Positions 1,401 to 37,281 of a DNA stretch of 64,000 nt are shown piece after piece (position 1 is the stretch's first letter; every line of letters starts with the position of its first letter). Made by a program: the position numbers and the translations under genes. The notes below the pieces were generated by a model, which did not search any database, was not told the origin of the DNA, and was given only the letters and a program-made list of their open reading frames with translations. The DNA comes from Chromobacterium haemolyticum DSM 19808 (GTDB lineage: Bacteria; Pseudomonadota; Gammaproteobacteria; Burkholderiales; Chromobacteriaceae): positions 1 through 64,000 of the forward strand of contig NZ_JONK01000028.1 of the NCBI RefSeq assembly GCF_000711885.1, read 5' to 3'.

Positions 1401-2123
1401 ATGAGTCAAGACTTGATCGTCATCACCGGCGCCAGTTCCGGCATCGGCGCCGCCACCGCCCGCTTGCTGTCGCAGCAAGGGCATCCGCTGCTGTTGCTGG
1501 CGCGCCGGATCGAGCGCCTGGAGGCGTTGGCGTTGCCGAATACGCTGTGTCGCGCGGTGGACGTGACCGACCGGGCCCAGTTGGCCGCCGCGGTGGCGGA
1601 GGCGGAGGACCGTTTCGGGCCGGTAGACGCCATCGTGAATAACGCCGGCGTGATGCTGCTGGGACAGATGGCCGAACAAGCGCCGGAAGAGTGGAAAACC
1701 ATGTTCGACGTTAATGTGCATGGCCTGCTCAACGGCATCCATGCGGTGCTGGGGGGCATGGTGGAGCGCAAGCGCGGCACGGTGATCAATATCAGCTCGG
1801 TGGCCGGACGCAAGACCTTCCCCAATCATGTGGCGTACTGCGGCACCAAGTTCGCGGTGCACGCGATGTCGGAGAACTTGCGCGAGGAGGTGGCGGACCA
1901 CGGCGTGCGGGTGGTGACGATTGCGCCGGGCGCGGTGGACACCGAACTGCTGTCGCATACCAGCAGCGAGGCGATCAAGGCTGGCTATGAGGCCTGGAAA
2001 CAGGAGATGGGCGGCGTGCTGGCGGCGGAAGACGTGGCTCGCGCCATCGTCTACGCTTATCAGCAGCCCCGGAACGTGTGCATCCGCGAGATCGTGCTGG
2101 CGGCGACGCGGCAGCAGCCCTGA
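1401..2123 (+). CDS. Short-chain dehydrogenase/reductase (classical SDR, YdfG-like)
   Basis: 240 aa NAD(P)-dependent oxidoreductase. It has the Rossmann cofactor motif TGASSGIG near residue 10, NNAGV near residue 80, and a catalytic YCGTK with upstream Ser (INISSVAGRK). An ATG preceded by AAGGAG gives a confident start. The closest general type is the serine/3-hydroxy acid dehydrogenase group, but the substrate cannot be read from sequence. It is probably controlled by the divergent LysR gene. Its TGA stop (2121-2123) is the left target duplication of a MITE insertion. Confidence 0.85.
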   Translation: MSQDLIVITGASSGIGAATARLLSQQGHPLLLLARRIERLEALALPNTLCRAVDVTDRAQLAAAVAEAEDRFGPVDAIVNNAGVMLLGQMAEQAPEEWKTMFDVNVHGLLNGIHAVLGGMVERKRGTVINISSVAGRKTFPNHVAYCGTKFAVHAMSENLREEVADHGVRVVTIAPGAVDTELLSHTSSEAIKAGYEAWKQEMGGVLAAEDVARAIVYAYQQPRNVCIREIVLAATRQQP

Positions 2124-2266
2124 GAACCTGTTCCTAGTCTGCTGCGCTTCGTGGAGCGTTGCACGGTGAGTACAAGCTCAAAATACTCATGTACCCCTCG
2201 ACCATTCCGCTTTTTCGCTCGTTTTCGCCTTGTCTCGCCCTGGCTCGCGAGACTTTGAACAGGCTC
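2124..2266 (+). mobile_element. MITE-like element, copy 1
   Basis: A 143-bp element with terminal inverted repeats GAACCTGTTC (2124-2133) and GAACAGGCTC (2257-2266). It is flanked by a perfect TGA duplication at 2121-2123 and 2267-2269. The left TGA is the stop codon of the SDR gene. The centre has the family's conserved ATGTAC block. No coding capacity. It fills the gap between two convergent genes. Confidence 0.85.
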
Positions 2267-2276
2267 TGAGAAGCTG

Positions 2277-3041
2277 TCAGTCCGCCACGTACAGCTGAGT
2301 CTCCGCTTCCCGCATCAGCTCGACGACGGCGGGCGGCGGCGGCTGGTCGGTGAATAGCGCGTCTATCTGCGACAGATGGCCCAGCTCCACCAGGGCCGGA
2401 CGGTCGAACTTGCTGTGGTCGGCGGCCAGGAACACATGGCGTGATTGCTGAATGATGGCTTCGGCGCTGCGTACTTCGCGGTAGTCGTAATCGCGCAGCG
2501 TGCCGTCAAGCTCGATGCTGGAAATGCCGATGATGCCGTAATCGACTCGGAACTGGCGGATCAGCTGCACCGTGGCTTCGCCGGTGATGCCGCGGTCGCG
2601 TTTGCGCAGCATGCCGCCCAGCACGATGACTTCGCAGTCCGGGTAGTCGCACATGGTGTCCGCCACGTGCAGATTATTGGTGATCACCCGCAGGCCGCGG
2701 TGCTGGTGCAGCGCCTTGGCCACTTCCTCGGTGGTGGTGCCCAGGTTGATGAACAGGGAGGCGTTGTCCGGGATGTGGCGCGCCAGGCATTCGGCGATGC
2801 GGCGTTTTTCGTCTATGCACAGCACTTGCCGCGCCTGGTAGGCCACGTTTTCCACGCTGGACAGCACGCTGGCGCCGCCGTGATAGCGTTGCAGCAGCTG
2901 GTGCTCGGCCAGCAGCGCGATGTCGCGGCGTATGGTCTGCCGGGTGACGGAGAAGTGTTCGGCCAGCTTTTCCACGCTGACGTAGCTATCGCGTTTGACC
3001 ATGGCCAGCAGTTCCTGCTGGCGTTGATTCAGAATGAGCAT
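2277..3041 (-). CDS. glpR: DeoR-family repressor, GlpR-like
   Basis: About 254 aa. The N-terminal DeoR helix-turn-helix (LNQRQQELL, VEKLAEHFSVTRQTIRRDI) is followed by a sugar-phosphate sensing domain with INLGTTTEEVAKAL, ITNNLHVADTM and FLAADHSKF. The overall pattern matches glycerol-3-phosphate regulon repressors. ATG at 3041 is preferred over TTG at 3050 because homologues usually begin MLILNQRQ; no strong SD is visible. It lies downstream of the FAD oxidoreductase on the same strand. No glpD, glpF or glpK is visible nearby, so the glycerol role rests on family resemblance. Confidence 0.75.
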   Translation of the reverse strand: MLILNQRQQELLAMVKRDSYVSVEKLAEHFSVTRQTIRRDIALLAEHQLLQRYHGGASVLSSVENVAYQARQVLCIDEKRRIAECLARHIPDNASLFINLGTTTEEVAKALHQHRGLRVITNNLHVADTMCDYPDCEVIVLGGMLRKRDRGITGEATVQLIRQFRVDYGIIGISSIELDGTLRDYDYREVRSAEAIIQQSRHVFLAADHSKFDRPALVELGHLSQIDALFTDQPPPPAVVELMREAETQLYVAD

Positions 3042-3099
3042 AAGCGGCAAGGCGGCGGGTTGAGACCGTCCGATTGTAAGCGGACAACTCCTCCCGGCG

Positions 3100-4194
3100 C
3101 TATGCCGTCAGCGTTGCCGCCGCGTATTCGGCCAGCGCCAGGCTGGCGGTGAGGCCGGGGGATTCGATGCCGTAGAGCTGGAGCAGGCCAGGCACGCCGT
3201 GCTGCGCCGGCCCCTGGACCAGAAAGTCCGCGTCCGCCGCTCCAGGGCCGGCGATTTTGGGACGGATGCCGGCATAGGCCGGGGCCAGCGCCTGTTCGGG
3301 CAAGGCCGGCCACCAGCGGCGGACGCCGGCGTAGAAGCGGTCGGCGCGGGCTGGGTCCACTTGGTAGTCTATGCGGTCCACCCATTCCATATCCGGGCCG
3401 AAACGCGCCTGGCCGGCCAGGTCCAGCGTCAGATGCGTGCCCAGGCCGCCGGCCTCGGGCAGCGGATAGATCAGGTGCTGGAACGGCGAACGGCCCTGCA
3501 GCGCGAAATAGGCGCCGCGCGCGTAATAGGGGGTGGGGATGGTTTCACGTGGAACCCCGGCCAGACTGGCCGCAACCCGCGGCGCCCAGAGGCCGGCAGC
3601 GTTGACCACCAAGCGCGCCTGGAGCCGCATGCCGGCGATGTCCAGCTCCAGCCCGTCGCCCGCTACACGGCCGCCGTGCAGCGGCGAGTTCAGCGCCAGC
3701 GTCGCGCCATGAGCCTCGGCGTCAGCCAGCAGGGCCAGCATCAGGCCGTGGCTGTCCAGGATGCCGGTGGACGGCGACAGCAGTGCGGCGTGGGCTTGCA
3801 AAGCCGGCTCCAGGGATTGCAGTTGCTCCGCGTCCAGCCAGCATAGGTCGGTCACGCCGTTGGCGGCGGCGCGTTGTTGCAAGGCTTGCAGACGCGGCAG
3901 CTCGGCCTCGTCGACGGCGACAATCAGTTTGCCACAGCGGCGGTGAGGGATGGCGCGCTGGGCGCAGTAGTCGTAAAGCCGCTGGCGGCCGGCTACGCAC
4001 AGCCGCGCTTTCAAGCTGCCGGGCGGATAGTAGAGCCCGGCATGGATGACTTCGCTGTTGCGGCTGGAAGTATGTTGACCGATGGCGCTTTCCGCTTCGA
4101 CGATGACGACTTCGCGGCCGGCCATCGCCAGCTGCCAGGCCACGGCCAGGCCAATCACGCCGGCGCCTATCACCACGCATTCCACGGTTTCCAT
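3100..4194 (-). CDS. FAD-dependent oxidoreductase (DAO family, L-2-hydroxyglutarate oxidase-like)
   Basis: 364 aa. The N-terminal dinucleotide-binding motif [14 protein letters not shown] is followed by [19 protein letters not shown] and [19 protein letters not shown]. This block is typical of the LhgO-like branch of the DAO superfamily, which oxidises 2-hydroxy acids or amines with FAD. The C-terminus has GIRPKIAG and the [21 protein letters not shown]-closing motif. ATG at 4194 is chosen because GGAGAG sits 6 nt upstream; a longer open frame upstream is non-coding. It is downstream of betT (76 nt) and upstream of glpR, possibly one transcript. The exact substrate is unknown. Confidence 0.8.
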
Positions 4195-4270
4195 CGCGCT
4201 CTCCATGCCGGATTGAATAAGGCATGGTGCGACGCCGCGGCGGCGGCGTCCAGCCCGGCGGCGCACAAGC

Positions 4271-6298
4271 CTATGAGGCGGTGGACTGCGGCTGCCGGCC
4301 GAGGTGGAGGTGGTGCAGATGCCGTTCGTATTGGTCCAGAATGTCGGCGATGATCTGTTCCTTGCGGTAGCTCCACAGGCTATAGACTTGGCCGCCGTCC
4401 TGCAGGTGCACTTCCAGCCGGCAGTCATGGCCGGGCGCGGCGCGGATGGTGAAGGAGGGCGTGGCTGCCACGGCGGCCTGGATGCGGTAGCGAAAGGCGG
4501 CGTCGCCATCGCCGTCGATGAACAGGCCCAGCCGCGGCAGGCCGGTCTGCGGGTCTGTTTCCTCTTCCAGCCGCGCCTTGACGCCGCACTGGCGCAGCAT
4601 GGAGCACACCTCGCGCAGGGCCGGGAGGCAGCTGTGTTCCAGCGTGGTCCGGGCTCGGTCCGGATCCGGATGGCTCAGCGCCCGGCTCAGCCGCTGCTGC
4701 CATCGGCTCAGCCGCCGATCGGCGTGGACGCGGGTACGGCCGGACAGCGAGCCGGCCAGGCTGGCCTGGAGGCTGTCTTCGCGCATGCCTTCGCTTCGCA
4801 GCGCCTTGTACAGCCCGGCCATGATGAAGAACATCACGAAGGAGAACGGCAAGCCCATGATGATGGTGGCGTTCTGCAGCGTGGGCACGCCGCCCACCAT
4901 CAGCATGGACAGCGTCAGGATGCCGATGGCCAGGGACCAGAAAATGCGCAGCCACTTGGGCGCGTCGCTGGCCGGGTCTTTGAGGAAGGAGGTGAAGTTG
5001 CCCAGCACCAGCGCGCCGGAGTCGGCTGAGGTAACGTAGAACAGCAGGCCGGTAACGGTGGCGAGCAGGGCGCTGAAACCCGTCCATGGGTATTGCGCCA
5101 GCAACGAATAGAACGCCCGTTCCGGCGTTTCCATCGCTGTCTTGCCAAAGCCCTGGTTGCCGGACAGCACCAGTTCAAGCGCGCTGTTGCCGAAGATGGA
5201 AATCCAGATCAGCGTGAACACGAAGGGGATGACCAGGGTGCCGATGATGAATTGACGCAGGGTGCGGCCGCGCGAGATACGTGCCAGGAACAGGCCGACG
5301 AAGGGCGCCCAGGCCACCCACCAGGCCCAGAAGAACAGGGTCCAGGCATTCAGCCAGTCCACCGGGCGCTGGAAGGCGAAGGTGTTCAGGGTCATGCCGG
5401 CGAAGCCGTTCAGGTAGTCGCCCACGTTCAGCACCAGGCCGTTGAGGAGGAACACGGTATTGCCGCTGAACAGCACGAACAGTATCAGCAGGATGGCCAG
5501 CAGCACGTTCAGCTCCGAGAGCCGGCGGATGCCCCTGTCCACGCCGGAGACCACGGACAGGGTGGCCATCGCCACCGACAGCAGGATCAGCAAGGCCTGC
5601 GGCAGCACCCCTTCCGGGATGTCGAACATGAAGTGCAGGCCGTAATTGAGCTGCACCACGCCTATGCCCAGCGAGGTGGCGATGCCGAAGATGGTGCCGA
5701 GCACGGCGGCGATGTCTACGCCGTGGCCTAGCGCGCCGTGAATGCGGCGGCCGAAGATGGGATAGAGGGCCGAGCGGATGCTGAGCGGCAATTGATGGCG
5801 ATAGCTGAAATAGCCCAAGGCCATGCCCATCAAGGCGTACATGGACCAACCGGTGATGCCGTAGTGGAACAGGGTCCAGGACATGGCCTGGCGCGCGGCG
5901 GCGTGGGTGCCGGGCGGGCCCTCGGGCGGGGCCAGCAGATGGGTGACCGGTTCCGCCACCGAGAAAAACATGAGGTCGATGCCGATGCCTGCGGCGAACA
6001 GCATCGCGCCCCAGGTGAACAGGTTGTATTCCGGCCGAGAGTGAGTCGGCCCCAGCTTGATGTTGCCAAAGCGGGAGCAGGCGATGACGAGGACAAACAA
6101 GATATAGAGCGTGGCGGCCAGGAAGTAGTACCAGCCAAAGCCTTCGGTGATCCAGCCCAATATCAAGGCCATGGCGCGGGAGGCGGCGTCGGCATCCAGC
6201 ATCGCCCACAGCGCCAGCGCAAGAATGCAGCTGGACGAGCCGAGGAACACCGTGCGGTTGAGGCGATCTGCCGCCCCGGTTTCCGGTAATGCAGCCAT
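4271..6298 (-). CDS. betT: BCCT-family choline/betaine transporter (BetT-like)
   Basis: 675 aa, 12 predicted membrane helices plus a long C-terminal cytoplasmic region (from about residue 510), the size and plan of BetT. The BCCT signature is clear: [19 protein letters not shown] followed by [27 protein letters not shown] lies in the third helix region. The family moves quaternary ammonium compounds such as choline with protons or sodium for osmoprotection. The C-terminal extension is the osmosensing region in characterised BetT proteins. The ATG is preceded by GGGAGA. An FAD oxidoreductase follows, but no betA or betB is visible here. Confidence 0.85.
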
Positions 6299-6405
6299 GT
6301 TGGGGTCTCCCGATGCTAGCGCAAGGCAAGGCTGAGACTAGCATCGGCAACCGGCGGGGGCTGGTCAGAATGCGACGCGGGGGCGAGCGCAGGCGACCGG
6401 ACGCG

Positions 6406-6429
6406 AAAAAGCCGCCCGTGGGCGGCTTT
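6406..6429 (-). terminator. Rho-independent terminator of the M24 peptidase gene
   Basis: On the minus strand a GCCGCCC/GGCGGC hairpin with a 3-nt loop is followed by five T residues. It starts 20 bp past the peptidase stop codon and ends about 110 bp before the betT start. Confidence 0.75.
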
Positions 6430-6449
6430 GGAGTTGTGTGGCGACCGGC

Positions 6450-7838
6450 TCAACCCGCCATCGCGGCTTCGATTTCCTCCACCGTTTTGGGAATCGGCGC
6501 GCCCAGCACGCGGCTGCCGTTGGCGGTGACCAGCACATTGTCTTCGATGCGGATGCCGCCGAAGTCGCGGTATTCGCGGAATTTGTCGTAGTTGATGTAC
6601 TGGCTGTGGCGGCCTTCGGCGGCCCAGGCTTCGATCAGCGCGGGGATGAAGTACATGCCGGGCTCCACCGTCACCACCATGCCTTGTTTCAGCGGCTTGC
6701 CCAGGCGCAGGTAGCCAAGGCCGAACAGCGGGCTGCGCTCGGTGTCCTCGCCGTAGCCCACCAGATCTTCGCCCAGCCCTTCCATATCGTGCACGTCCAT
6801 GCCGATCTGATGGCCGAGGCCATGCGGGAAGGCGATGGCGTAAGCGCCGGATTCGACGATATCGTTGGCGTCGCCGCGGAAGAAGCCCAGCGCGCTCATT
6901 CTTTCCACCATCAGGCGCGCGGACAGCTTGTGCACGTCCAGATAGCGCACGCCCGGCTTCATCGCTTCGATGGCGGCCAGCTGCATGTCCAGCACGATGT
7001 TGTACAACTCGCGCTGGCGCGGACTGAATTTACCGCCCACCGGGAAGGTGCGGGTGATGTCGCTGGCGTAGCCGCCGCCGGAGGTACAGCCGGTGTCGTT
7101 CAGCGCCAAGTCGCCGCTTTCCAGACGGTTGTCGTGGTGATGGTTGTGCAGCACTTCGCCGCGGCGCGAGAAGATGGACGGATAGGCTAGTTGCCAGTCG
7201 CGGCGGCGCATGATGCCTTCCATCTCGCCCACTACCTCGTATTCCATCACGCCGGGTTTGGCGTGGCGCATTGCGGCGATGTGCATGTCGCGGGTCACCG
7301 CCAGCGCCGCTTCCATTTCGGCGATTTCCTCGTCTCCCTTGATCTCGCGCAGCGCCACCACGGCGTGGGTCAGCGGCGCGGAGAAACCTTCCTTGACCTG
7401 GGCCGGATGAACGTTCAGCAGGCGGCCCATTTCGATCAGGGTTTCGCCGCGGTACGGCGCCAGGTAATGCACGGCGCGGCCGGCGGCGCGCGCGGCGGCT
7501 ACCGTGGAGGCCAGGTTGGCGTAGGCGTTGCTGCGGTCCAGGCCGGCCAGCGCGGCGCGCTCGGCCAGGCTGGGCAGCGGGCCGGTCCAGACGATGTCTG
7601 CCACGTCCGGGTCGTTGCCGAACAGCGTCGCTTCGCCGCTGTCGGCGTCGATGACGCCGGCCAGGCCCGGCTCGTTCAGGCCGAAGAAATAACGGAAGCT
7701 GGAGTCCTGGACGAAGGGCAGGGTGTTGTCGTGGTAGTTCATCGGCGAATCGACATTGCCGACAAACAACAGCAGGCCGGACAGGCCGGCCGCTTGCAGA
7801 CGGGCGCGGCGTTGCGCGTATACGGTGGCAGCGAACAT
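6450..7838 (-). CDS. Xaa-Pro aminopeptidase family metallopeptidase (M24B)
   Basis: 462 aa. An N-terminal creatinase-like domain (residues 1-170) is followed by a pita-bread M24 catalytic domain. All five expected metal ligands are visible: Asp in NDTGCTSGGGYASD and again in SDITRTFPV, His in HGLGHQIGMDVHD, Glu in VTVEPGMYF and Glu in GGIRIEDNVLV. It cleaves N-terminal residues preceding proline in peptides. ATG at 7838 is chosen for the GAGGAAACC upstream; the longer frame is spurious. It is monocistronic, with its own terminator. Confidence 0.85.
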   Translation of the reverse strand: MFAATVYAQRRARLQAAGLSGLLLFVGNVDSPMNYHDNTLPFVQDSSFRYFFGLNEPGLAGVIDADSGEATLFGNDPDVADIVWTGPLPSLAERAALAGLDRSNAYANLASTVAAARAAGRAVHYLAPYRGETLIEMGRLLNVHPAQVKEGFSAPLTHAVVALREIKGDEEIAEMEAALAVTRDMHIAAMRHAKPGVMEYEVVGEMEGIMRRRDWQLAYPSIFSRRGEVLHNHHHDNRLESGDLALNDTGCTSGGGYASDITRTFPVGGKFSPRQRELYNIVLDMQLAAIEAMKPGVRYLDVHKLSARLMVERMSALGFFRGDANDIVESGAYAIAFPHGLGHQIGMDVHDMEGLGEDLVGYGEDTERSPLFGLGYLRLGKPLKQGMVVTVEPGMYFIPALIEAWAAEGRHSQYINYDKFREYRDFGGIRIEDNVLVTANGSRVLGAPIPKTVEEIEAAMAG

Positions 7839-7942
7839 GGTTTCCTCGAGGGTGGGCAGGGTCCGCCCGGTCGGTCGCCGCGCGGAATATTGTATCCAGT
7901 CCCTTAACTTATCATGCCCGCCGCCGGGCTGCCAGTGCCGGT

Positions 7943-9148: not shown

Positions 9149-9264
9149 GATGCGCTTTCTTGCAATGAAAAGTAGCGCCCAGCCTAGCGCAAGCGCCGGT
9201 CCGCGCCTTCCCACAGCCGGCGTAAACAGTTTATGCTGCGCACAATCTGTTCTATATAACAGCC

Positions 9265-16614: not shown

Positions 16615-17751
16615 ATGGAAAAAGACCAGGCTTCCAAGTTCATACTGGATCTGCTGAAGCACGCCACCGGCAAGAACGCCTCCGACGTTTTCATCGCCGC
16701 GGATTTCCCGCCGGCGATGAAGATAGACGGCAAGATCACTCCGGTGGCGCCGCAGCCCCTGTCCGCCCAGCACACCAAGGAACTGGTGCGCGCGGTGATG
16801 AACGACCGGCAGACCGAGGAGTTCGAATCCAAGAAGGAGGCGAACTTTGCGATCAACCCGCCGGGTCTGGGGCGTTTCCGCGTCAGCGCCTATGTGCAGC
16901 AGGGCCATGCCGGCATGGTATTGCGCAAGATCAACACTGAAATCCCCACCTTCGACCAACTCAACCTGCCGCTGGTGCTGCGCGACATCGCGCTGATCAA
17001 GCGCGGCCTGGTGATCTTCGTTGGCGGCACCGGTTCAGGCAAATCCACCTCGCTGGCCGCGCTGGTGGACTGGCGCAACAGCCATAACCACGATCACATC
17101 ATCACCATCGAAGATCCGATCGAATACGTGCACCAGCACAAGAAGTCCATCATCACCCAGCGCGAGGTGGGCGTGGACACCGATGATTGGGACATTGCCT
17201 TGAAGAACACCTTGCGCCAGGCGCCGGACGTGATTCTGATGGGCGAGATTCGCGATCGCGAAACCATGGGTTACGGGTTGCAGTTCGCCGAAACCGGCCA
17301 TTTGTGCCTGGCCACGCTGCATGCCAACAACGCCAACCAGGCGCTGGACCGCATTCTCAACTTCTTCCCCGAAGAGCGCCATCAACAGGTGTTGATGGAT
17401 TTGTCGCTGAATATGCGCTCCATCATCTCTCAGCGGCTGGTGCCGATCAAAAGCGGCCGCGGCAGGGTGGCGGCGGTGGAAATTCTGCTCAACAGCCCGC
17501 TGGTGTCCGACATGATCTTCAAGGGCGAAATCGCCGGCCTGAAGGAAGTGATGGGCCGCTCGCGCGAGAACGGCATGCAAACCTTCGATCAGTCCTTGTT
17601 CGAGTTGTACGAAGCGGACCTGATCAGCTACGAGGACGCCCTGCGCAACGCCGACTCCATTAACGACCTGAGGCTGAAGATCAAGCTTTACAGCGAGGGC
17701 TCCAAGTCGCGCGACCCGCTGGAAGGCATAGACCACCTCGACATCGTCTAA
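16615..17751 (+). CDS. pilU: PilT-paralogous retraction ATPase PilU
   Basis: 378 aa accessory retraction motor that works with PilT. Walker A GGTGSGKST, Asp box IITIEDPIEYVH, Walker B PDVILMGEIRDRETM and ETGHLCLATLHANNANQALD are visible. The C-terminus is longer than in PilT, as usual for PilU. Probably cotranscribed with pilT. Its TAA stop (17749-17751) is the left TNA flank of a MITE insertion. Confidence 0.94.
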   Translation: MEKDQASKFILDLLKHATGKNASDVFIAADFPPAMKIDGKITPVAPQPLSAQHTKELVRAVMNDRQTEEFESKKEANFAINPPGLGRFRVSAYVQQGHAGMVLRKINTEIPTFDQLNLPLVLRDIALIKRGLVIFVGGTGSGKSTSLAALVDWRNSHNHDHIITIEDPIEYVHQHKKSIITQREVGVDTDDWDIALKNTLRQAPDVILMGEIRDRETMGYGLQFAETGHLCLATLHANNANQALDRILNFFPEERHQQVLMDLSLNMRSIISQRLVPIKSGRGRVAAVEILLNSPLVSDMIFKGEIAGLKEVMGRSRENGMQTFDQSLFELYEADLISYEDALRNADSINDLRLKIKLYSEGSKSRDPLEGIDHLDIV

Positions 17752-17883
17752 TAACCTGTTCACGCGCTACTGCGCGTCGTGAGACGGCTCACGGTGAGTA
17801 CCGCTTCGAAATGCTCATGTACCGTGTGTGCGCTCCGCTTTCTTAGAGTCTGTTCCACGATCTCGCCTTGGTTCGCGAGACTC
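17752..17883 (+). mobile_element. MITE-like element, copy 2 (right end eroded)
   Basis: Left TIR TAACCTGTTC at 17752-17761, then the family sequence including the CGAAATGCTCATGTACC centre and GTTCGCGAGACT. About 10 bp of the right TIR are missing. TAA flanks both sides (17749-17751, which is the pilU stop, and 17884-17886). The 3' end of the convergent tetR gene abuts it, with its TAG stop overlapping the junction. Confidence 0.75.
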
Positions 17884-18470
17884 TAACCCCCGGCTTGCAA
17901 GGCCAACGCAGCCGATGCGCTTTTCAGCAACCGGTCGGAGAGCGCTTCGTCCGAGATGGCGCGAGACAGCAGCAAGGCGCCCACCATCAGTGCCAGGCAG
18001 GCTTCGGGCGCCAGCGCCGGCCGCGCTCCGGCCGCCGTGTCGCATTGTTGCGCTTGGCGCAAGGTGTGCAGCAAGGCCTGCAAGCCCTCGGAAAACGCCT
18101 GGCGGGTGGCTTTGTCGTGGCGAGCCAACTCCCCGGCCAGCGCGGCGGCGGCGCAGCCGGAGTCGGGAAAATCCCTGTGCGCCGCGCTCAAATAATCCTT
18201 GGCAAGCCGTTTCAGCCCGGCGCCGCGCGGCGCCTGTTCCAATTGAGCCTGCCAAATCTCGTTCATATCCAGCAATGCCTGGCGACAGGATTGCGCCACT
18301 AGGTCGTCCTTGCTGTGGAAGTGGGCGTAAAAGCCGCCATGGGTCAGTCCCAGATCCGCCATCAGATTGGCGATGCCGACATTGGCCACGCCTTCAGCGC
18401 GAAAGCGCAGCGAGGCCATGGTCAGGATCCGTTGACGGGTTTCGGTCTTGTGAGTTGAGCTGTAGCGCAT
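17883..18470 (-). CDS. TetR-family transcriptional regulator
   Basis: 195 aa. The N-terminal TetR helix-turn-helix (residues 10-60) contains LRFRAEGVANVGIANLMADL and THGGFYAHFHSKDDLVAQ. The C-terminal ligand domain contains GCAAAALAGELARHD and resembles regulators of the AcrR/NemR-like group that respond to reactive small molecules. The ATG follows AAGGTCAACG. It has no adjacent target gene and is bracketed by two MITE copies in opposite orientation. The last codons run into the MITE boundary. Confidence 0.85.
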   Translation of the reverse strand: MRYSSTHKTETRQRILTMASLRFRAEGVANVGIANLMADLGLTHGGFYAHFHSKDDLVAQSCRQALLDMNEIWQAQLEQAPRGAGLKRLAKDYLSAAHRDFPDSGCAAAALAGELARHDKATRQAFSEGLQALLHTLRQAQQCDTAAGARPALAPEACLALMVGALLLSRAISDEALSDRLLKSASAALALQAGG

Positions 18471-18722: not shown

Positions 18723-18855
18723 GAATGTGTTGACGGTCTCGCGAGCTAAGGCGAAAACGGCTGAGAAAGCGGAATGTACGCGTGGTACATGAGTATTTCG
18801 AAGCGGTACTCACCATGGGGCGTCTCACGATGCGCAGCAGATCGTAAACAGGTTC
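18723..18855 (-). mobile_element. MITE-like element, copy 3 (inverted)
   Basis: 133 bp in reverse orientation to copy 1. The right end, read on the minus strand, is GAACCTGTTTACGATCT (18839-18855), identical over 17 bp to the IS end at 317-333. The other TIR (18723-18732) is degenerate. TCA flanks both sides (18720-18722 and 18856-18858). The internal inverted repeat ATGTAC-GCGTG-GTACAT is intact. Confidence 0.82.
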
Positions 18856-25225: not shown

Positions 25226-25368
25226 GAGCTTGTTCAAAGTCTGCTGCACTTTGTGAAGCGTTGCACGGTGAGTACAAGCTCAAACTGCTCATGTACCCCT
25301 CGTACACCCGGCTTTCTCAGCCGTTTTCGCCTTGTCTCGCCCTTGCTCGCGAGACTTTGAACACGCTC
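25226..25368 (+). mobile_element. MITE-like element, copy 4
   Basis: 143 bp, TIRs GAGCTTGTTC (25226-25235) and GAACACGCTC (25359-25368). The right flank TCA (25369-25371) is the reverse complement of the TGA stop of the convergent LysR gene; the left flank is TCT, one mismatch. The internal CTCATGTACCCCTCGTACA repeat is kept. Confidence 0.82.
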
Positions 25369-26250
25369 TCAGCCCCCGGGGAAGCCGCGCTCAGCAAAGA
25401 AGTCGATGAAGGCGCGCAGCCGCGGAGGCAAATAGGGCGCGCTGGGCCATAGCAGGTAGAGGGTGCCGCGGCGTTCCGCCCAGGCTTCCGGCAGCGCTTG
25501 CAACCGTCCTTCCGCCAGTTGGCGGCGCACGGTGAAGTCCGGCAAGCAGGCGATGCCGGCGCCTTGTTCGGCCAACTGGATCAGCGCGTCGCCTGTGTTG
25601 CCGCAGGCGTTGACCGGCAAAGTCTGGGCATCGACGCCGCTCAGCGGCCACGGCGCCAGCTTGCCGCTGCGAGGGTAGCGATAATGCAGGCAGCGGTGTC
25701 GCGCCAGATCTGCCGGCGACGCCGGCTCCCCGCAGCGGGCGAAGTAGGCCGGCGCGGCCACCAGCCGCATGCGATAAGCGCCCAGCCGGCGAGCGCTCAA
25801 GCGTGAATCGCCGGGCTCGCCGCCGCGGATCACTACATCGAAGCCTTCGCCTATCACATCCACCAGGCGGTCGCTATAGTCCAGGTCCAGCTCAATTTCC
25901 GGGTAGCTTTGCATGAAGCTTGCCAGATGTGGGGCCAGCACCCCGCATTCATGCGGCAGACCGACTTTCAGCCGGCCGCGGGGAGCGGCCTGACCCTGTT
26001 GCAGCTCGCGTTCGGCGGCTTCCACTTCATCCAGAATGCGCAGGCATCGTTGCAAGTATTGTTCCCCGGCCGTGGTCAGGGTCAGCCGCCGCGTGCTTCG
26101 CTGAACCAGGCGGGCGCCCAATCGTGCCTCCAGCCGCGCCAGCCCCTTGCCGGCGGCTGAGGCGGAAATGCCCAATTGCCGTCCGGCTGCCACCAGGCTG
26201 CCTTGCTGGGCGATGTGGGCAAACAGCTCGATGCCGCTCATTTTCTCCAT
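25369..26250 (-). CDS. LysR-family transcriptional regulator
   Basis: 293 aa. HTH with ELFAHIAQQGSLVAAGRQLG and ASAAGKGLARLEARLGARL, then LVQRSTRRLTLTTAGEQYL, the CrgA-like subgroup pattern. The effector domain has DYSDRLVDVIGEGFDVVIRG. It is divergent from an MFS exporter (117-bp gap) that it probably regulates. Start at 26250 with GAGG upstream; 26241 (MSGIEL) is an alternative. Its TGA stop coincides with the right target flank of MITE copy 4. Confidence 0.87.
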   Translation of the reverse strand: MEKMSGIELFAHIAQQGSLVAAGRQLGISASAAGKGLARLEARLGARLVQRSTRRLTLTTAGEQYLQRCLRILDEVEAAERELQQGQAAPRGRLKVGLPHECGVLAPHLASFMQSYPEIELDLDYSDRLVDVIGEGFDVVIRGGEPGDSRLSARRLGAYRMRLVAAPAYFARCGEPASPADLARHRCLHYRYPRSGKLAPWPLSGVDAQTLPVNACGNTGDALIQLAEQGAGIACLPDFTVRRQLAEGRLQALPEAWAERRGTLYLLWPSAPYLPPRLRAFIDFFAERGFPGG

Positions 26251-28806: not shown

Positions 28807-28816
28807 GTCGCCTCCT

Positions 28817-30311: not shown

Positions 30312-30318
30312 GCTCTCA

Positions 30319-30458
30319 TAACCTGTTCATCGTCTGCTACGCATCGGCGATACCGCGTTGAAACCGGCTTCGAAATGCTCATGTACCCCATGTACATTCC
30401 GCTTTCTCAGCCGTTTTCGCCTTGTCTCGCTCTTGCTCGCGAGACTTTGAACAGGTTC
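30319..30458 (+). mobile_element. MITE-like element, copy 5
   Basis: 140 bp with TIRs TAACCTGTTC (30319-30328) and GAACAGGTTC (30449-30458) and perfect TCA duplications (30316-30318, 30459-30461). The centre ATGTAC-CCC-ATGTACATTCC keeps the palindromic core. It ends 28 bp before the start of the Sel1-repeat gene, so that gene's promoter must be inside or across the element. Confidence 0.86.
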
Positions 30459-30486
30459 TCAGGACAGGCTGGTGGGGAGAGCGGCG

Positions 30487-31116: not shown

Positions 31117-31131
31117 CGGCTTGAAACCTGC

Positions 31132-31551
31132 TCAGGCGCGGGCCGGGCCGCGGCGCATCGCCGCCAGGCACTGGCAGGCGGCCTGCCAATCCTGAACGCC
31201 GCGCAGGCCGCGCACGATGATGCCGGCCAGAGTGTCGTTGCAGGCGTCCGGGCCGAACTGCATCAGCATTTCATGCAAGGCGAAATGCAGGGAGGCATTG
31301 TGCTGAAGCAGCAAGCCCACCTGTTCATGGACGAAGCCGTCCACCGTGGCCTGGCCGTCGCGGTCCACGTGAACATGGTGGCGCGGACAGAAGCCGGAAC
31401 GGATCAGCGCCTGGTCCGCGCGCACGTCGTCTAGAAAAGCCTGCGCGCTGTGGTGCAGAAAGCCGCACGCCATGATCAGGCTGGCTACGGAGTAGGGTTT
31501 GGTGGTGGTGGCGTCGGCGACGAGGGCGTTGTCCGGCAAGGTGGCAAGCAT
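31132..31551 (-). CDS. Conserved-looking hypothetical protein
   Basis: 139 aa, no signal peptide and no membrane helix. It contains several His and Cys residues (CGFLHHSAQAFL, CPRHHVHVDRDGQATVDGF, ACNDTLAGII). Mean composition and codon use match neighbouring genes. A good CAGGAGAACATAA site supports the start. I do not recognise the family. Convergent with the Sel1 gene. Confidence 0.6.
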   Translation of the reverse strand: MLATLPDNALVADATTTKPYSVASLIMACGFLHHSAQAFLDDVRADQALIRSGFCPRHHVHVDRDGQATVDGFVHEQVGLLLQHNASLHFALHEMLMQFGPDACNDTLAGIIVRGLRGVQDWQAACQCLAAMRRGPARA

Positions 31552-31755
31552 TTATGTTCTCCTGTTATCTTTGTAAACCGCGCTTAAGTGGCATAAATCG
31601 TCGGTTTTATTATTTTTTCCGCGTTTTTGTATCATTCATGCGAATGTATTGGCAAGCCCGTCGAAAGGACGGTTGCCAGCCGCGGCTGCCAGGGTTTTTC
31701 TTGGGACGATGGCCATTTAGAATGAACGCTTTATTGACTGTTTGTTCCCATCCGC

Positions 31756-32331
31756 ATGCATATTGTCTACCTGCACGGCTTCAATTCCGGTCCTCAATCG
31801 CTGAAGGCGAACGAAACCGCCGCTTATTTGCAACAGAACGCGTTCGATGCGACCTTGCATTGTCCGCAGCTGTCCCCCCATCCGGCCGAGGCGATCGAGC
31901 AGGCGTCCGCTCTGGTGGCGTCCTTGCCGGCCGACACCTTGCTGATCGGCAGTTCGCTCGGCGGTTATTACGCTACCTTTTTGGCCGAGCGCCATCAACG
32001 CCCGGCGGTGCTGATCAATCCGGCGGTGCGGCCTTACGACGATTTGGCGCGTTTCATCGGCGAGCAGACCAACCCCTACACCGGCGTGGTCTACACCTTG
32101 AGCGACGCTGATATGCACGCCTTGCTGGGGCTGCGCGTGCCCCAGCCGTCCGCGCGCCGTTACTGGCTGCTGTTGGGCAGTTGCGACGAGGTGCTGGATT
32201 GGCGTGAAGCGGCGGCGCTGTATCTGGACTGCCGCCAGACAGTGTTCAACGGCGATGACCATAGACTTGAAGCCTGGCCGCGCATCCTGCCGGAAGTGCT
32301 GGCTTGGGGGCGCGGACAATGCTTGGTTTGA
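31756..32331 (+). CDS. YqiA/YcfP-family alpha/beta-fold esterase
   Basis: 191 aa. It begins MHIVYLHGFNSGPQSLKANE and has the nucleophile elbow IGSSLGGYYATFLAE (Ser near 66), NPAVRPYDDLARFIG and GDDHRLEAW with the likely catalytic His. This is the UPF0227/YqiA pattern: small cytoplasmic carboxylesterases with unclear natural substrate. No strong ribosome binding site precedes the ATG. It is followed by a quinone oxidoreductase on the same strand after 86 bp. Confidence 0.82.
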   Translation: MHIVYLHGFNSGPQSLKANETAAYLQQNAFDATLHCPQLSPHPAEAIEQASALVASLPADTLLIGSSLGGYYATFLAERHQRPAVLINPAVRPYDDLARFIGEQTNPYTGVVYTLSDADMHALLGLRVPQPSARRYWLLLGSCDEVLDWREAAALYLDCRQTVFNGDDHRLEAWPRILPEVLAWGRGQCLV

Positions 32332-32417
32332 TGTAGAAACAGCCTGTTCTGCGACAGCGGCTTGCCTGGGACGGCTCCGCCGTCGCACACTGGATTTTTT
32401 GAGCCTAGGAGGCTGCC

Positions 32418-33392
32418 ATGACTCAAGCCATCGTTTTCTCCCACACCGGCGGGCCGGAAGTGCTCGGTCTGCAAAGCCAGGAGCTGACCGCTCCGGGACC
32501 GGGTCAGGCGCGGGTGCGTCATACCGCCATCGGCGTCAACTTCATCGATACCTATCAGCGCAGTGGTCTGTATCCGTTGCCGCTGCCGTCCGGCCTGGGC
32601 CAGGAGGCGGCCGGGGTGGTGGAAGCGTTGGGGCCGGGGGTGTCCGGTCTGGCGGTGGGAGACCGCGTCGCTTACGCCGGAGGCCCGCTGGGCGCTTATA
32701 GCACCGAGCGCTTGCTGCCGGCGGCGGTGCTGGTGAAGATTCCCGACGGCATCAGCGACGAATCCGCCGCCTGCATGATGTTGCAGGGCATGACTGTGGA
32801 GTATCTGGTGCAACGCACCTACCCGGTGAGGCCGGGCCAAACCATCTTGTGGCACGCGGCCGCCGGCGGAGTGGGACAGATCGCGGTGCAGTGGCTGACG
32901 GCGCTGGGCGCGACGGTGATAGGCACTGTTGGTTCCGACGCCAAGGCCGACATCGTGCGCGGCCTGGGCTGCCAGCATGTGATCAATTACAGCCGCGAAG
33001 ACGTGGTGGCGCGAGTCAGCGAGATCACCGGCGGACAGGGCGTGCCGGTGGTCTATGACTCGGTCGGCAAGGATACTTTCCAGATATCGCTGGCTTGCTT
33101 GAGTCCGCGCGGCATGTTGGTCAGCTTTGGCAACGCGTCCGGCGCGGTGCCGCCGTTCGCGCCTTTGGAGCTGACCAGTCGCGGCTCGCTGTTCTTTACC
33201 CGGCCCAAGCTGGCCGATTACATCGCCAGCCGCGCGGAGCTGGAGGCCTCGGCCCAAGCCTTGTTTGATCGGGTGGCGGACGGCAGGGTCAAGGTGGCGC
33301 CATCGCATCGTTATCCCTTGGCGGAGGCCGCGCAGGCGCACCGCGATCTGGAAGGGCGCAAGACTAGCGGCTCTATTATCCTGCTGCCTTGA
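32418..33392 (+). CDS. Quinone oxidoreductase, zinc-free MDR family
   Basis: 324 aa NADPH-dependent quinone reductase (Qor/zeta-crystallin type). The N-terminus has AIVFSHTGGPEVLGLQSQEL and GVNFIDTYQRSGLYPLPLP. The cofactor domain has HAAAGGVGQIAVQWLTALGA and the C-terminal catalytic-fold residues; no zinc-binding cysteines are present. It reduces quinones one electron at a time in characterised relatives. The ATG follows AGGAGGCTGCC. Confidence 0.88.
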   Translation: MTQAIVFSHTGGPEVLGLQSQELTAPGPGQARVRHTAIGVNFIDTYQRSGLYPLPLPSGLGQEAAGVVEALGPGVSGLAVGDRVAYAGGPLGAYSTERLLPAAVLVKIPDGISDESAACMMLQGMTVEYLVQRTYPVRPGQTILWHAAAGGVGQIAVQWLTALGATVIGTVGSDAKADIVRGLGCQHVINYSREDVVARVSEITGGQGVPVVYDSVGKDTFQISLACLSPRGMLVSFGNASGAVPPFAPLELTSRGSLFFTRPKLADYIASRAELEASAQALFDRVADGRVKVAPSHRYPLAEAAQAHRDLEGRKTSGSIILLP

Positions 33393-33420
33393 ACGGGCAG
33401 CGACGCCAGTCAGGCATCGC

Positions 33421-34134
33421 TTATTCTTGGTGCCAGGGCTGGCGCTGGTGTCGCTCCAGCCAAGCCAACGCCCGGCCGTCGCTGTCGACATGGCCCAGAT
33501 AGCCGGCCAGGCTGACGTCGGGCGGGCAGCTCAGGTTGGTGTCGCGCCAGCTTTGCAGCCGGTCCACGCGGAAGCTGCGGTAGTCCAGGCGCAGGCCGCA
33601 CCAGGCCGCCAGCAGCCAGCGGTCGCCCCAGAAAAACAGAGCCAGCGGCAACAGCGCGCGTTGGCTATCGCGGCCGCTTTCGTCGCGGTAATCCACCCAA
33701 AGCGCTTGGCGGGAGACGATGGCGTCGCGCAGCGGCGCCAGCCGCTCGCGCGGGTAATTGCCCGCAGTGGGCGCGTACAGCGGCTCCGGCGGCAGGCCGG
33801 AGGACCCCAGCACCGCGTGGATGCGGCCCAGCGCCGATTGCGCCGCGGCGGCGGTGTCCCGGTCCGCCCAGGCCGCCAGCATGCGCGCGCCCACTTCCAG
33901 CGCCGCCAGTTCGCGCGCGGAAAACGCCACCGCCGGCGGCGTGAAGCCGGCTTCCAGCCAATAGCCCTCGCCGGCTTCGCCGTTGAGCGGCGCGCCGCTG
34001 GCCATCAGATCCGCCATATCGCGGTAGACAGTGCGCGGCGTCACTTCCAGCCATTCGGCCAACTGCCGGGCAGTGGTGCGGCGGCGGCCGCGCAGCAGCA
34101 AGAGGATTTGAACCAGTCGGTCGGCTCGGCGCAT
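33421..34134 (-). CDS. HTH-WYL transcriptional regulator (YafY type)
   Basis: 237 aa. An N-terminal HTH_11 winged helix (RADRLVQILLLLRGRRRTTA, RTVYRDMADL) is followed by a WYL domain with LWVDYRDESG and GLRLDYRSFRVDRL. WYL domains bind nucleotides or nucleic acid ligands and appear in both stress and defence regulators. It is the last gene of a tight VOC-EVE-WYL operon: only 2 bp separate it from the EVE gene. Probably autoregulates the unit. Confidence 0.85.
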   Translation of the reverse strand: MRRADRLVQILLLLRGRRRTTARQLAEWLEVTPRTVYRDMADLMASGAPLNGEAGEGYWLEAGFTPPAVAFSARELAALEVGARMLAAWADRDTAAAAQSALGRIHAVLGSSGLPPEPLYAPTAGNYPRERLAPLRDAIVSRQALWVDYRDESGRDSQRALLPLALFFWGDRWLLAAWCGLRLDYRSFRVDRLQSWRDTNLSCPPDVSLAGYLGHVDSDGRALAWLERHQRQPWHQE

Positions 34135-34136
34135 AT

Positions 34137-34589
34137 TTAGTCGGGTTCCCGCAGCATGGATGGCGGCAGTGTCGCCCGCATCGCGCGCGCGATCAACAGG
34201 AAATCGGCGCGGCCGATTTCCAGGTGGCCGAAGCGAAAGGCGTAGCCCCAGCGCGCCGGATCCGCGATGAAGATCAATTGGCCGAGCAGCGGCCGGATTT
34301 CGGCGTCCTCTGCCGGCCAGAACGCGATGTTCCGCCGGTAGGGCTCGAAATCGGCGCTGACCCGGAACGGGTAGACTCGGTCGCCCATCGCCTGGCCGAT
34401 GGCGGTGAAGCGCTGGCAGGGCTCGCGCCCTTCCAGGCTGAGCACCGGCGAGTAATAGATCAGGCCGTCGCCGGCCGCCATCCGCTTGAGCGGCGCGGCC
34501 TTGCCATGGCAGAGCTGGGCGAAGCTGCCGGCCAGCCCGCGCCGCACATGGTCGCGGCTGGCCACGCCTATCCAGTAGCGACGGCTCAT
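34137..34589 (-). CDS. EVE-domain protein
   Basis: 150 aa, entirely an EVE fold (PUA-like). It starts SRRYWIGVASRDHVRRGLAG and has MAAGDGLIYYSPVLSLEGRE and FTAIGQAMGDRVYPF. EVE domains are thought to recognise modified bases in DNA or RNA. ATG at 34589 overlaps the TGA of the VOC gene (ATGA), which shows translational coupling. The longer open frame upstream is a shadow of that gene. Confidence 0.82.
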   Translation of the reverse strand: MSRRYWIGVASRDHVRRGLAGSFAQLCHGKAAPLKRMAAGDGLIYYSPVLSLEGREPCQRFTAIGQAMGDRVYPFRVSADFEPYRRNIAFWPAEDAEIRPLLGQLIFIADPARWGYAFRFGHLEIGRADFLLIARAMRATLPPSMLREPD

Positions 34590-34954
34590 GCGGCGCTGTG
34601 CAGGCCGATCAGATTGCCTTCCAGATCGGAAAACAGTGCGATGTGCCCCCAGGTTTCCGGCAAGCGGGTCTTGGGCTGCACCACGATGCCGCCGGCGGTT
34701 TTGACCCGTTCCAGCGTGGCGTCCAGATCGGCGCCGCCATCCAGATAGACGCGCACGCCGTCTACGTGGGGGCGGGCTTGCGGGCAGCTCAGCAGCGCGC
34801 CGCCGCAACTGTCGCCGGTTTTGGGAAACAGCGCCATGCGGGCGTTGTCGAAGCTTTCCTCGTGCAGTTCTAGCTGCAATGCCTGCTGATAGAAGGCGAC
34901 GGCGCGTTCGAACTGGAGCACGGGAATTTCAAACCAGTGTAATACAGGGGACAT
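34586..34954 (-). CDS. VOC-family protein (glyoxalase-like)
   Basis: 122 aa, one VOC module. VLHWFEIPVLQFERAVAFYQ at the N-terminus and HIALFSDLEGNLIGLHSA at the end carry the usual metal-ligand positions. AAGGAGTG precedes the ATG. First gene of the VOC-EVE-WYL operon. Substrate unknown; annotated relatives are often called bleomycin-resistance or glyoxalase proteins without proof. Confidence 0.8.
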   Translation of the reverse strand: MSPVLHWFEIPVLQFERAVAFYQQALQLELHEESFDNARMALFPKTGDSCGGALLSCPQARPHVDGVRVYLDGGADLDATLERVKTAGGIVVQPKTRLPETWGHIALFSDLEGNLIGLHSAA

Positions 34955-35256
34955 GGCACACTCCTTAAAGGGGTTTTGAGCGATCCGGCCGCGAGCGTTG
35001 CTGCCTCGCGTTCAACGGGGCGGAGGCGGCGTCGCGGCCATGGAGGGCAGTGTGCGGCCCCCCTGCTGACAGCGTGTTGTCAGCAGGCGCGCCGCGTTTG
35101 CGATTTTTTTGGGCTTGGGCAACTTTGCCGGTTGCCGGGCGAGTAAAAACCGCTAGGCCGGACACGACCCGGTCACGTGGATGTGGCAAACTGCCAGACT
35201 GTTTCCCGGCGCGCCGGGACGGCTGTTTTTTCAATCGACCGCAGGAGGAATAACAA
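34955..35256. promoter_or_regulatory. 302-bp divergent intergenic region upstream of VOC and MgtC genes
   Basis: No gene. It contains a perfect 9-bp inverted repeat, CTGCTGACA (35063-35071) and TGTCAGCAG (35078-35086), with a 6-bp spacer. This is a good operator or hairpin candidate. No riboswitch class was recognised. Confidence 0.5.
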
Positions 35257-35982
35257 GTGGAAACCTTACTGCAGTTTCTGGGCTTCAACGGGTCTGGTCT
35301 GCTGCAAACCTTGCTCAGCCTGTTGACGGCTTTCATTCTGGGCTCGGCCATAGGCTACGAGCGCCAGTTCCGTCAGCGCACCGCTGGCCTGCGCACCAAT
35401 ACCCTGGTGGCGGTGGGCGCGGCGGCCTTTGTCGACATGGCGCTGCAGCTGGACGGCACCGGCGGCGCGGCGCGGGTGGCGTCCTACGTGGTGTCCGGCG
35501 TTGGTTTTCTCGGCGCCGGCACCATCATGAAAGAGGGCTTGAACGTGCGCGGTTTGAACACCGCGGCGACCTTGTGGGGCTCGGCGGCAGTCGGCGCCAG
35601 CGCCGGCGCGGGTCAGATTCCCCAGGCTTTTCTGATCACGCTGTTCGTGTTGGCCAGCAACACCTTGCTGCGTCCGGTGGTGAACTCGATCAACCGCAAG
35701 CCTATCGACGACGAAACCAGCGAAGTCACTTACCAGTTGTGCGTGATCTCCAGCCGTTCCGGCCAGAAACACGCAATGGCCTTGCTCAGCGACCTGCTTG
35801 AGGAGTCCAAGTATCCGGTGGGGGATCTGGACGTGGAGCCCTTCGGCGACGACGAGGTGGAGATGACCGCCACCTTGCTGTCCACCTCGGTGGAGTGGGA
35901 GGAGCTGGAGGAGATCGCCGCCAAGCTGGTGGCCCAGCCTTTCATCAGTCAGGCGTATTGGAATCCCAGTACTTCGGAGTGA
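35257..35982 (+). CDS. MgtC/SapB-family membrane protein
   Basis: 241 aa. An N-terminal MgtC domain with about four or five helices contains LGSAIGYERQFRQRTAGLRT, GVGFLGAGTIMKEG and NTAATLWGSAAVGASAGAG. A C-terminal cytoplasmic ACT-like region (from about residue 155) ends the protein. MgtC proteins modulate growth in low magnesium and inside host cells, partly by inhibiting F-ATPase in Salmonella; the role here is by family only. GTG start with GCAGGAGGAATAACAA upstream. A strong terminator follows. Confidence 0.85.
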   Translation: METLLQFLGFNGSGLLQTLLSLLTAFILGSAIGYERQFRQRTAGLRTNTLVAVGAAAFVDMALQLDGTGGAARVASYVVSGVGFLGAGTIMKEGLNVRGLNTAATLWGSAAVGASAGAGQIPQAFLITLFVLASNTLLRPVVNSINRKPIDDETSEVTYQLCVISSRSGQKHAMALLSDLLEESKYPVGDLDVEPFGDDEVEMTATLLSTSVEWEELEEIAAKLVAQPFISQAYWNPSTSE

Positions 35983-36000
35983 GAAGGATGGGGAAAGATC

Positions 36001-36036
36001 AAGCCCTGGGCCGCTTGCCGGTCCAGGGCTTTTTTA
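36001..36036 (+). terminator. Rho-independent terminator of the mgtC-like gene
   Basis: AAGCCCTGG / CCAGGGCTT stem followed by T6, 18 bp after the stop codon and just before MITE copy 6. Confidence 0.85.
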
Positions 36037-36045
36037 TGGGCGGGA

Positions 36046-36186
36046 GAGCCTGTTCAAAGTCTTGAGAGCAAGACAAGACGAAACCCGCTGAGAAAGCAGA
36101 ATGTACGCGTGGTACATGAGCGTTTCAAAGCGGGTTTCAACCCATCTATCCATCCCGCTGACGCGCAGCGGGCTTTGAACCGCTTC
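36046..36186 (-). mobile_element. MITE-like element, copy 6 (inverted)
   Basis: 141 bp, TIRs GAGCCTGTTC (36046-36055) and GAACCGCTTC (36177-36186). The right flank TTA (36187-36189) is the TAA stop of the convergent aminotransferase gene. The left flank GGA has lost the TNA pattern. The internal ATGTAC-GCGTG-GTACAT repeat is intact. Confidence 0.8.
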
Positions 36187-37281
36187 TTAACCTTCCGCCA
36201 GCGCCGCCATCACTTTGGCCGACAGCGCCTGCGGTTGCGCGGTGACGCGCAGCAAGTGGCGTACCGCCGGGTGCGGCGGGCGGTGCACGGCGATGCCGTC
36301 GGACAGCAGCTGGCGATGGATGGCCTCGCTGCTGGCGGCGTCGCGATAGGCGATGCAGACGAAGTTGGTGTGCGAGGGCATCACCACGAGGTCGCGCGCG
36401 CGCAAGGCGTCGGATAGTTTGTCGCGCAGATGGATGGTGGCGGCGATCAACTGACGGGAATAGTCGGGATCGTCCAGCACGATTTGCGCCGCCAGTTGGG
36501 CGAAGCTGGACAGCGCGAATTGCGGCCGAATCTGGTCCGCCTTGGCGACGATGTGTTGCGGACCTATGGCGTAGCCCACCCGCAGACCGGCCAGCGCATA
36601 GGCCTTGGACAGCGTGCGCAAACGCAGGGTGTTGGGCAGCGCGCCCTGCGGCGGCGCGTCCTGCGCGTCCACGCAGAAATCGACATAGGCCTCGTCCAGG
36701 ATCAACAGCGTGGACGAAGGCAGGGTTTCGCGCAGCGCCAGGATATCGTCCGCGCTCCAGTAGTGGCCGCTGGGATTATCCGGGTTGGCGAGATAGAGCA
36801 CGGCGGCACGCTCGGCGCGAGCCACTTCCGCCAGCCGCGGCAGATCGGCCTGCAGCCGGTCGCCTTGTTGCTGGTAGGGCACTTCCAGAATGCGCGCCCC
36901 CACGCCTTCGGCGAAATAACGGAAGGTGGGATAGGTGCCGGCGGTGCATACCACCGCGTCGCCGACATTACAGGCCAGACGCAAGGCCAACAGGATCAGG
37001 CTGTCGGCGCCGGTGTCGAACAGTACCTGGCTCGCGTCCACGCGGTTGTGGGCCGCCGCGCGCTGACGCAGTCCGTGCGCGTAAGGGTCAGGGTAGAGCC
37101 GGGCCAGTTCCGTCATCATCTCGCCGAACTCCGCCGTTAGCGGAGAGGCCGGCTTGGCCATGCTTTCATTGGAACCGATGCGCGCGCCGATGCGGTGGCC
37201 CAACGCCGCCTCCAGCTTCACGATGCCGGGGAAGGGGTTGACGATGGTGTGATGTTCCAGGTGACGGGCGAAGTGAGACAT
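36187..37281 (-). CDS. HisC-like PLP-dependent aminotransferase
   Basis: 364 aa class I/II aminotransferase of the histidinol-phosphate aminotransferase group. It shows SNESMAKPASPL, YLANPDNPSGHYW, LILDEAYVDFC and the PLP-lysine motif LRTLSKAYALAGLRVGYAIG. No other his genes are nearby, so the real substrate could be another amino acid or 2-oxo acid. ATG at 37281 with AAAGGAG upstream is chosen. It follows lptM on the same strand after a 137-bp gap. Its TAA stop is the TNA flank of MITE copy 6. Confidence 0.82.
   Translation of the reverse strand: MSHFARHLEHHTIVNPFPGIVKLEAALGHRIGARIGSNESMAKPASPLTAEFGEMMTELARLYPDPYAHGLRQRAAAHNRVDASQVLFDTGADSLILLALRLACNVGDAVVCTAGTYPTFRYFAEGVGARILEVPYQQQGDRLQADLPRLAEVARAERAAVLYLANPDNPSGHYWSADDILALRETLPSSTLLILDEAYVDFCVDAQDAPPQGALPNTLRLRTLSKAYALAGLRVGYAIGPQHIVAKADQIRPQFALSSFAQLAAQIVLDDPDYSRQLIAATIHLRDKLSDALRARDLVVMPSHTNFVCIAYRDAASSEAIHRQLLSDGIAVHRPPHPAVRHLLRVTAQPQALSAKVMAALAEG

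Follow-up and report, generated by a model that had tools for sequence, protein, structure and literature searches.

We analysed a window of 64,000 nucleotides (positions 1-64000 of contig C25) from the genome of Chromobacterium haemolyticum DSM 19808 (designated G000; 5.03 Mb in 63 contigs, with a G+C content of 61-65%), which contains eight nearly full-length copies, of about 140 bp, of a palindromic miniature inverted-repeat transposable element (MITE) and one remnant of about 51 bp. Four of the eight copies abut a stop codon of the form TNA, as a first-pass annotation of the window had reported, and the positions of these four stops are exact, each of them touching an end of the element (Table 1). 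The genes that they terminate match, in Pfam, a short-chain dehydrogenase (SDR), a T2SSE-family ATPase (called pilU in that annotation), a LysR-family regulator and a class I/II aminotransferase. The closest relatives of the pilU-like protein, within a named collection from which its own genome is possibly excluded, are found in C. alkanivorans, C. haemolyticum and C. aquaticum, with 98-99% identity. It had also been proposed that the target duplication created by the insertion is reused as the stop; the stop on the gene side is kept in all four cases, but identical triplets flank the element only at the SDR gene, and the far target copies of the other three have been changed or lost.

The ends of the MITE read GAGCCTGTTCAAAGTCT, with A or G as the third base, and this pattern with TNA in front gave 128 + 122 matches genome-wide, allowing up to two mismatches, whereas the reversed pattern gave no match in the genome. 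These ends also delimit an 850-bp insertion sequence (IS) at positions 189664-190513 of contig C3, with TTA on both sides and a transposase in two overlapping reading frames that match IS5-family models: PF01609 (DDE_Tnp_1; 2e-31), PF13340 (DUF4096; 5e-22) and NF033580 (IS5 family transposase; 5e-44), with the longer frame above and the shorter one below the NCBIfam cut-off for NF033580. Because they share these ends with the IS, we class the copies of about 140 bp, on sequence grounds, as non-autonomous MITEs of an IS5-family element residing in the same genome; they also use the same TNA target as the IS, are present in high copy number and are too short to encode a transposase. From ten places with DDE transposases inspected for the full IS (L051-L060), L051 corresponds to the 850-bp IS, L058 showed one end-like match and the other eight showed no match to the element ends. 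IS copies are probably under-counted through collapsed assembly, because ten contigs of G000 (C12, C13, C17, C19, C30, C31, C33, C39, C40 and C45) start with a DDE transposase match, at no more than 50 bases from their first base; these matches are only candidates for the 850-bp IS.

Using a profile derived from a window copy, copies were searched over 1.66 Mb and then over 2.06 Mb (41%) of the genome, and a control with the reversed sequence of the first 1.66 Mb gave 0 matches. In the smaller sample, 61 of the 158 copies lay on a stop and, in the larger one, 72 of 187 copies of about 140 bp lay exactly on the stop of a neighbouring gene, which confirms that the landing of these MITEs on stop codons is real. 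The share was 29/54 among the copies of the larger sample with an identical TNA on both sides, and a gene end overlapped the element by one base in 13 further copies of the 187, some of them TAG stops completed by the G of the element and others decayed or tandem ends. An independent count over the first 400 kb of G004, a further Chromobacterium genome, placed 13 of 24 copies on a stop. We examined 19 of 80 loci of pilU-like relatives and found stop landings for 3/6 copies in C. alkanivorans, 1/2 in C. aquaticum and 0/1 in C. vaccinii; no copy was detected with the MITE model at 16 of those 19 loci. As a separate observation, high copy number appears to be limited to a clade, since five of the 19 Chromobacterium genomes contained more than 300 first-look, unverified candidates, and the other fourteen 3 to 34 candidates and 0 to 9 scored matches.

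Examination of 236 well-preserved ends from the 1.66 Mb sample revealed a TNA triplet in 188 and a C before the triplet in 150, the triplets being TAA or TTA in 150 and TGA or TCA in 38; 50 of the 92 copies with two good ends had an identical TNA on both sides, so that both the target pattern and its duplication can be read directly from the copies. The preference was also evident in 61 non-stop insertions taken alone, which show C before the triplet in 55% (21% in the background) and a G+C content of 60% in the 40 flanking bases (50% in the background). Insertions in coding sequence are rare, with 17 for 56,664 coding TNA sites, at least four of the 17 being TAG straddlers and some lying at doubtful gene starts. 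For TNA stops, 65 of 1315 (5%) were occupied, with occupancy depending on the motif: 16/80 (20%) for C-TAA-G, 10/174 for C-TGA-G and 0/226 for TGA stops with neither the C nor the G. Three of the 37 TAG-straddling sites were occupied. Among the copies of the 1.66 Mb sample with a well-preserved facing end, none starts 1-6 nt past a stop and many start at 0 or at 7 nt or more; this vacancy is possibly due to chance, with few TNA sites fitting there.

How far the target explains the stop landings was evaluated by removing the copies by script, calling the genes again and listing every TNA site. If the permitted TNA sites within each gap were chosen uniformly, one would expect 34.4 landings on stops or TAG-straddling sites, compared to 68 seen out of 118 (P = 7e-15), and 12.6 compared to 30 out of 48 for copies with identical triplets (P = 1e-9). 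Hence, over all gaps that contain a gene 3' end, the rate at stops is above that of plain TNA sites; in convergent gaps alone, with whose TNA sites the first-pass annotation had proposed to compare the landings, the uncorrected odds ratio was 2.6 (z 2.6), or 2.2 (z 1.3) for identical-triplet copies. Because selection keeps a target copy that serves as a stop while neutral copies decay, we counted copies under a bias-free rule, in which TNA is required of the target copy on the side opposite the stop, and of a fixed side for the non-stop copies. Under this rule, gaps with a 3' end contained 38 stop and 50 or 49 non-stop copies, that is, 43-44% on stops, and omitting the TNA filter gave a similar 43% (72/169). 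The within-gap expectation, derived from the preference of the non-stop insertions, was 46% with fitted weights and 43% with six context classes (bootstrap 38-49%), and the observed share therefore equals the prediction, with no preference for stops beyond the motif within gaps. In contrast, the uniform choice predicts 29%, well below the bias-free 38/88 (P = 0.005). The earlier proposal that the TNA rule steers insertions to gene ends thus holds in its direction, but plain TNA falls short, and a wider preference for C-T-(A/T)-A-G in G+C-rich DNA is needed. Applied to G004, the same rule retained 3 copies on stops and 4 or 5 elsewhere, a very small sample.

Several results weigh against the target motif being the whole explanation. 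Before bias correction, motif weighting gave 54.0 expected landings against 68/118 (P = 2e-4), a simpler weighting in six classes gave 51.2 against the same count, and for identical-triplet copies 23.9 were expected against 30/48 (P = 0.011); the corresponding adjusted odds ratios for stops were 2.3-3.3 compared to gap sites at up to 60 nt and 3.4-4.3 compared to all gap sites. Even the bias-free 43% exceeds the 31% of stop weight pooled over all 3' gaps (P about 0.02), and the pooled per-site rate at stops is higher than in other 3' gap sites in five of the six context classes. Additionally, the target weights were learned from only the 61 non-stop insertions, which is a small basis, and the genes were called by our own script, with a dicodon model for which this DNA itself was the training set. 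Counting every copy that kept a good TNA at one end or both pointed to a two- to threefold preference for stops even after motif correction; we rejected this estimate, because a target copy that is a stop is protected from decay. The raw excess of stops is in part a counting bias, and we attribute the excess that persists after motif weighting to this retention, which by our own arithmetic raises the odds about 1.7-fold, together with differences between gaps, although a real residual across gaps of about 1.5-2-fold, at most modest, may exist.

For the comparison with relatives we chose seven genes, comprising the four stop cases of the window and three more (C3:51152, C1:343463 and C2:221861, by contig and position), picked because both ends were well preserved; the first two of these three are called here PpsR-like and PgpA-like. 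The loci used, out of those retrieved, were 18/20, 15/20 and 19/20 for window genes and 19/19, 18/18 and 6/19 for the other three, and the genomes are designated by their G numbers. We identified nine element-free places, in five genes of close relatives, and in all nine the gene stops at the same codon: the SDR gene in G001 and G018, the LysR gene in G018 and G004, the aminotransferase gene in G001 (with TAG), the PpsR-like gene in G013 and G001, and the C2 gene in G004 and G018. These places would presumably correspond to the state before insertion. At the C2 gene, the sequence TGAGGCGCGCGGC of G004 is identical to the far flank of the element in G000 across those 13 bases. The stops at the nine places agree with the earlier proposal that the duplication preserves the stop. 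The SDR gene of G004 has no recognisable element, but the DNA downstream of it also differs. Decayed element-like sequence comes after the LysR gene in G013, and the PgpA-like gene has element-like sequence from its stop in G018, G004 and G013, with no match in G001 and with the element absent only in more distant species.

Some stops carry elements that differ between genomes. The SDR stop is arranged as TGA-element-TGA in G000 and as TAA-element-TAA in G013, another species, with the elements in opposite orientation, and the elements at the C2 gene in these two genomes are also opposite in orientation, with TGA in both. The simplest reading is that they are separate insertions, although an inversion in place may have occurred, chiefly at the C2 gene. 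The elements at the PpsR-like gene of G000 and G018 are nearly identical, and G018 shows a TGA stop with TAA as the far copy. On the TAA of the pilU-like gene, C. alkanivorans carries a tandem pair of MITEs (L141:11138-11420) that share TAA copies, and C. haemolyticum H4137 carries what appears to be the start of the full IS; in C. aquaticum and others this gene ends in TGA with no element. A second tandem pair occurs at the same locus of C. alkanivorans (L141:14336-14620), and another one in G000 (C3:30807-31089). Separately, a repeat of another kind, about 330-390 bp long, begins at the PpsR-like stop in G002, G003 and G017 (L312, L314 and L315); its first bases resemble the end of the MITE (GAACGTGTTCACGATC or a single-base variant of it), and it shows no clean far end. 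These three genomes contain at most one match each to the MITE of about 140 bp. No shared insertion places were found between the first 400 kb of G004 and the sample of G000, this stretch mapping almost wholly to contigs outside the sample.

Together, we consider it very probable that the coincidence with stop codons is a by-product of the target rule and of the harmlessness of these sites, and not the result of stop-codon recognition; the explanation offered in the first-pass annotation, a target rule with harmless landing, is supported and was essentially right. The main alternative is an active targeting of stops or gene 3' ends beyond the DNA motif, through such factors as terminating ribosomes, transcription ends or local supercoiling. 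The uncorrected odds ratios compared to nearby gap sites, and the stops of the SDR and C2 genes with opposite elements in G000 and G013, would fit it; nevertheless, the bias-free share equals the expectation, occupancy within the stop class tracks the motif, and sites 0-10 nt past stops in convergent gaps are also raised (7 observed for 1.6 expected from context), all of which make it decidedly improbable. Special recognition of stop codons is therefore not supported and homing is not needed. It is likewise unlikely, if a little less so, that stops are a true insertion hot spot for this IS5-type transposase beyond the motif, with the same genes hit repeatedly across species and the elements acting as a standard transcript tail.

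Alternatively, copies at stops could be retained by selection for a function as a hairpin 3' untranslated region, a terminator or a transcript end. Two copies folded as RNA are predicted to form long hairpins (z -2.5 and -5.0), as any palindromic MITE would, and copies apparently common to other species exist at the aminotransferase gene (G018 and G004) and the PpsR-like gene (G018). However, the stop share is highest among copies with the best-preserved ends (31/65) and lowest among the most decayed (7/30), opposite to a slow enrichment by retention, although decayed ends hide coincidences, and no within-gap excess over the motif expectation is left for selection to explain, so that we regard this possibility as very unlikely. 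Finally, that the stops are an artefact, created by insertions that truncate genes or by errors in gene calling, is hardly credible in spite of the one-base overlaps noted above and of some genes that end deeper inside the element, because an in-frame TAA or TGA target was already a stop before insertion, because the nine element-free places end at the same codon and because, for 66 insertions, the gene called on the element-free sequence again ends at the target.

According to the mechanism that we favour, the element inserts at TNA, preferring C-T-(A/T)-A-G in G+C-rich surroundings, with duplication of the three central bases, as the pattern of the copies shows, and the transposase of the IS would mobilize the MITEs in trans, as suggested by their shared ends and target. 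Intragenic insertions, whose rarity is observed, would presumably be purged by selection. Since T and A are scarce at 61-65% G+C, TAA and TGA stops constitute, in a genome with short gaps, a large part of the good targets that remain harmless. Insertion into one of them leaves TAA or TGA ahead of the element and does not alter the protein, and at a TAG stop preceded by T the first base of the element, a G, rebuilds the TAG.

In the remaining part of the window, the first-pass annotation also described TAG stops straddling the element junctions of two genes. This proved correct for the gene ending at the remnant, where the last base of the element supplies one letter of the stop. The TAG of the TetR-family gene beside the pilU-like gene is located some 14 nt within a decayed MITE end with an extrapolated limit; the C-terminal end of this TetR-family product may have been set by the element.

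Table 1. MITE copies, target triplets and associated stop codons in the 64,000-nucleotide window.
Feature	Position	Strand	Details
TGA stop of SDR gene	2121..2123	+	Gene 1401-2123; left target copy
MITE copy 1	2124..2266	+	143 bp; two intact ends; target duplication TGA/TGA
TGA triplet	2267..2269	+	Second target copy at SDR gene
TAA stop of T2SSE-family ATPase (pilU-like) gene	17749..17751	+	Gene 16615-17751; left target copy
MITE copy 2	17752..17896	+	Far end decayed, limit extrapolated; far triplet GCA; contains tetR TAG stop (17883-17885)
MITE copy 3	18723..18855	-	Target duplication TCA/TCA; in divergent gap, off any stop
MITE copy 4	25226..25368	+	Far triplet TCT
TGA stop of LysR-family gene	25369..25371	-	TCA on + strand; gene 25369-26250; target copy
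MITE copy 5	30319..30458	+	Target duplication TCA/TCA; starts 7 nt past a stop, off the stop itself
MITE copy 6	36046..36186	-	Far triplet GGA
TAA stop of class I/II aminotransferase gene	36187..36189	-	TTA on + strand; gene 36187-37362; target copy
Remnant	53322..53372	.	51 bp; internally deleted (judged by eye)
TAG stop at remnant	53372-53374	-	Last base of remnant plus adjoining TA; gene 53372-53842
MITE copy 7	58950..59092	+	Left end decayed; off any stop
MITE copy 8	63021..63163	-	Target duplication TGA/TGA; off any stop

The kind of element is already known, and the landing on stops is a quantified by-product of it. IS5-family ISs with a 3-bp TNA target belong to the IS1031 and IS427 groups. 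The 850-bp IS resembles them in its matches to NF033580 and to DDE_Tnp_1/DUF4096, its length, its inverted ends and its flanking TTA, but it differs in having two overlapping transposase frames, and is placed here at the family level only. A 3-nucleotide target is described as common to the IS1031 group in connection with ISLxx6 (PMC2516522). BrickBuilt, MITE293 and MITE700 from Porphyromonas gingivalis are short repeats with inverted ends matching full IS5-family elements, although the available passages do not report for them an exact landing on stop codons (PMC4596501). In ISLxc2 and ISLxx4, the stop of the transposase lies within the duplicated NCTAGN target (PMC2516522); this is also a stop inside a target duplication, but it serves the gene of the element, whereas here the stop of the host gene is kept. 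RU-1 and QMITE2, which are also small mobile repeats, have copies reported at host gene 3' ends, including one QMITE2 copy with a stop immediately before the element that was ascribed to an indel (PMC2759123, PMC5896051); in the cases described there the protein is extended or altered, unlike here, where a target copy serves as the stop and the protein does not change. In an open-access collection of the literature, with most subscription journals outside its coverage and sources available in part, we found no description of the exact landing of MITEs on stop codons as a bias; neither did we find there any paper pairing 'miniature inverted-repeat' with 'Chromobacterium', nor any by phrases on a restored stop codon.

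Our results yield a simple rule, with numbers attached, that explains how hundreds of copies of a mobile element can build up in a genome dense with genes and yet mostly spare them: when the target is able to spell a stop codon, such stops become safe landing places. A second target copy can be the fossil of a stop, as in the PpsR-like gene of G018, where the two triplets now differ. We would expect this reasoning to extend to any element with a target similar to a stop codon.

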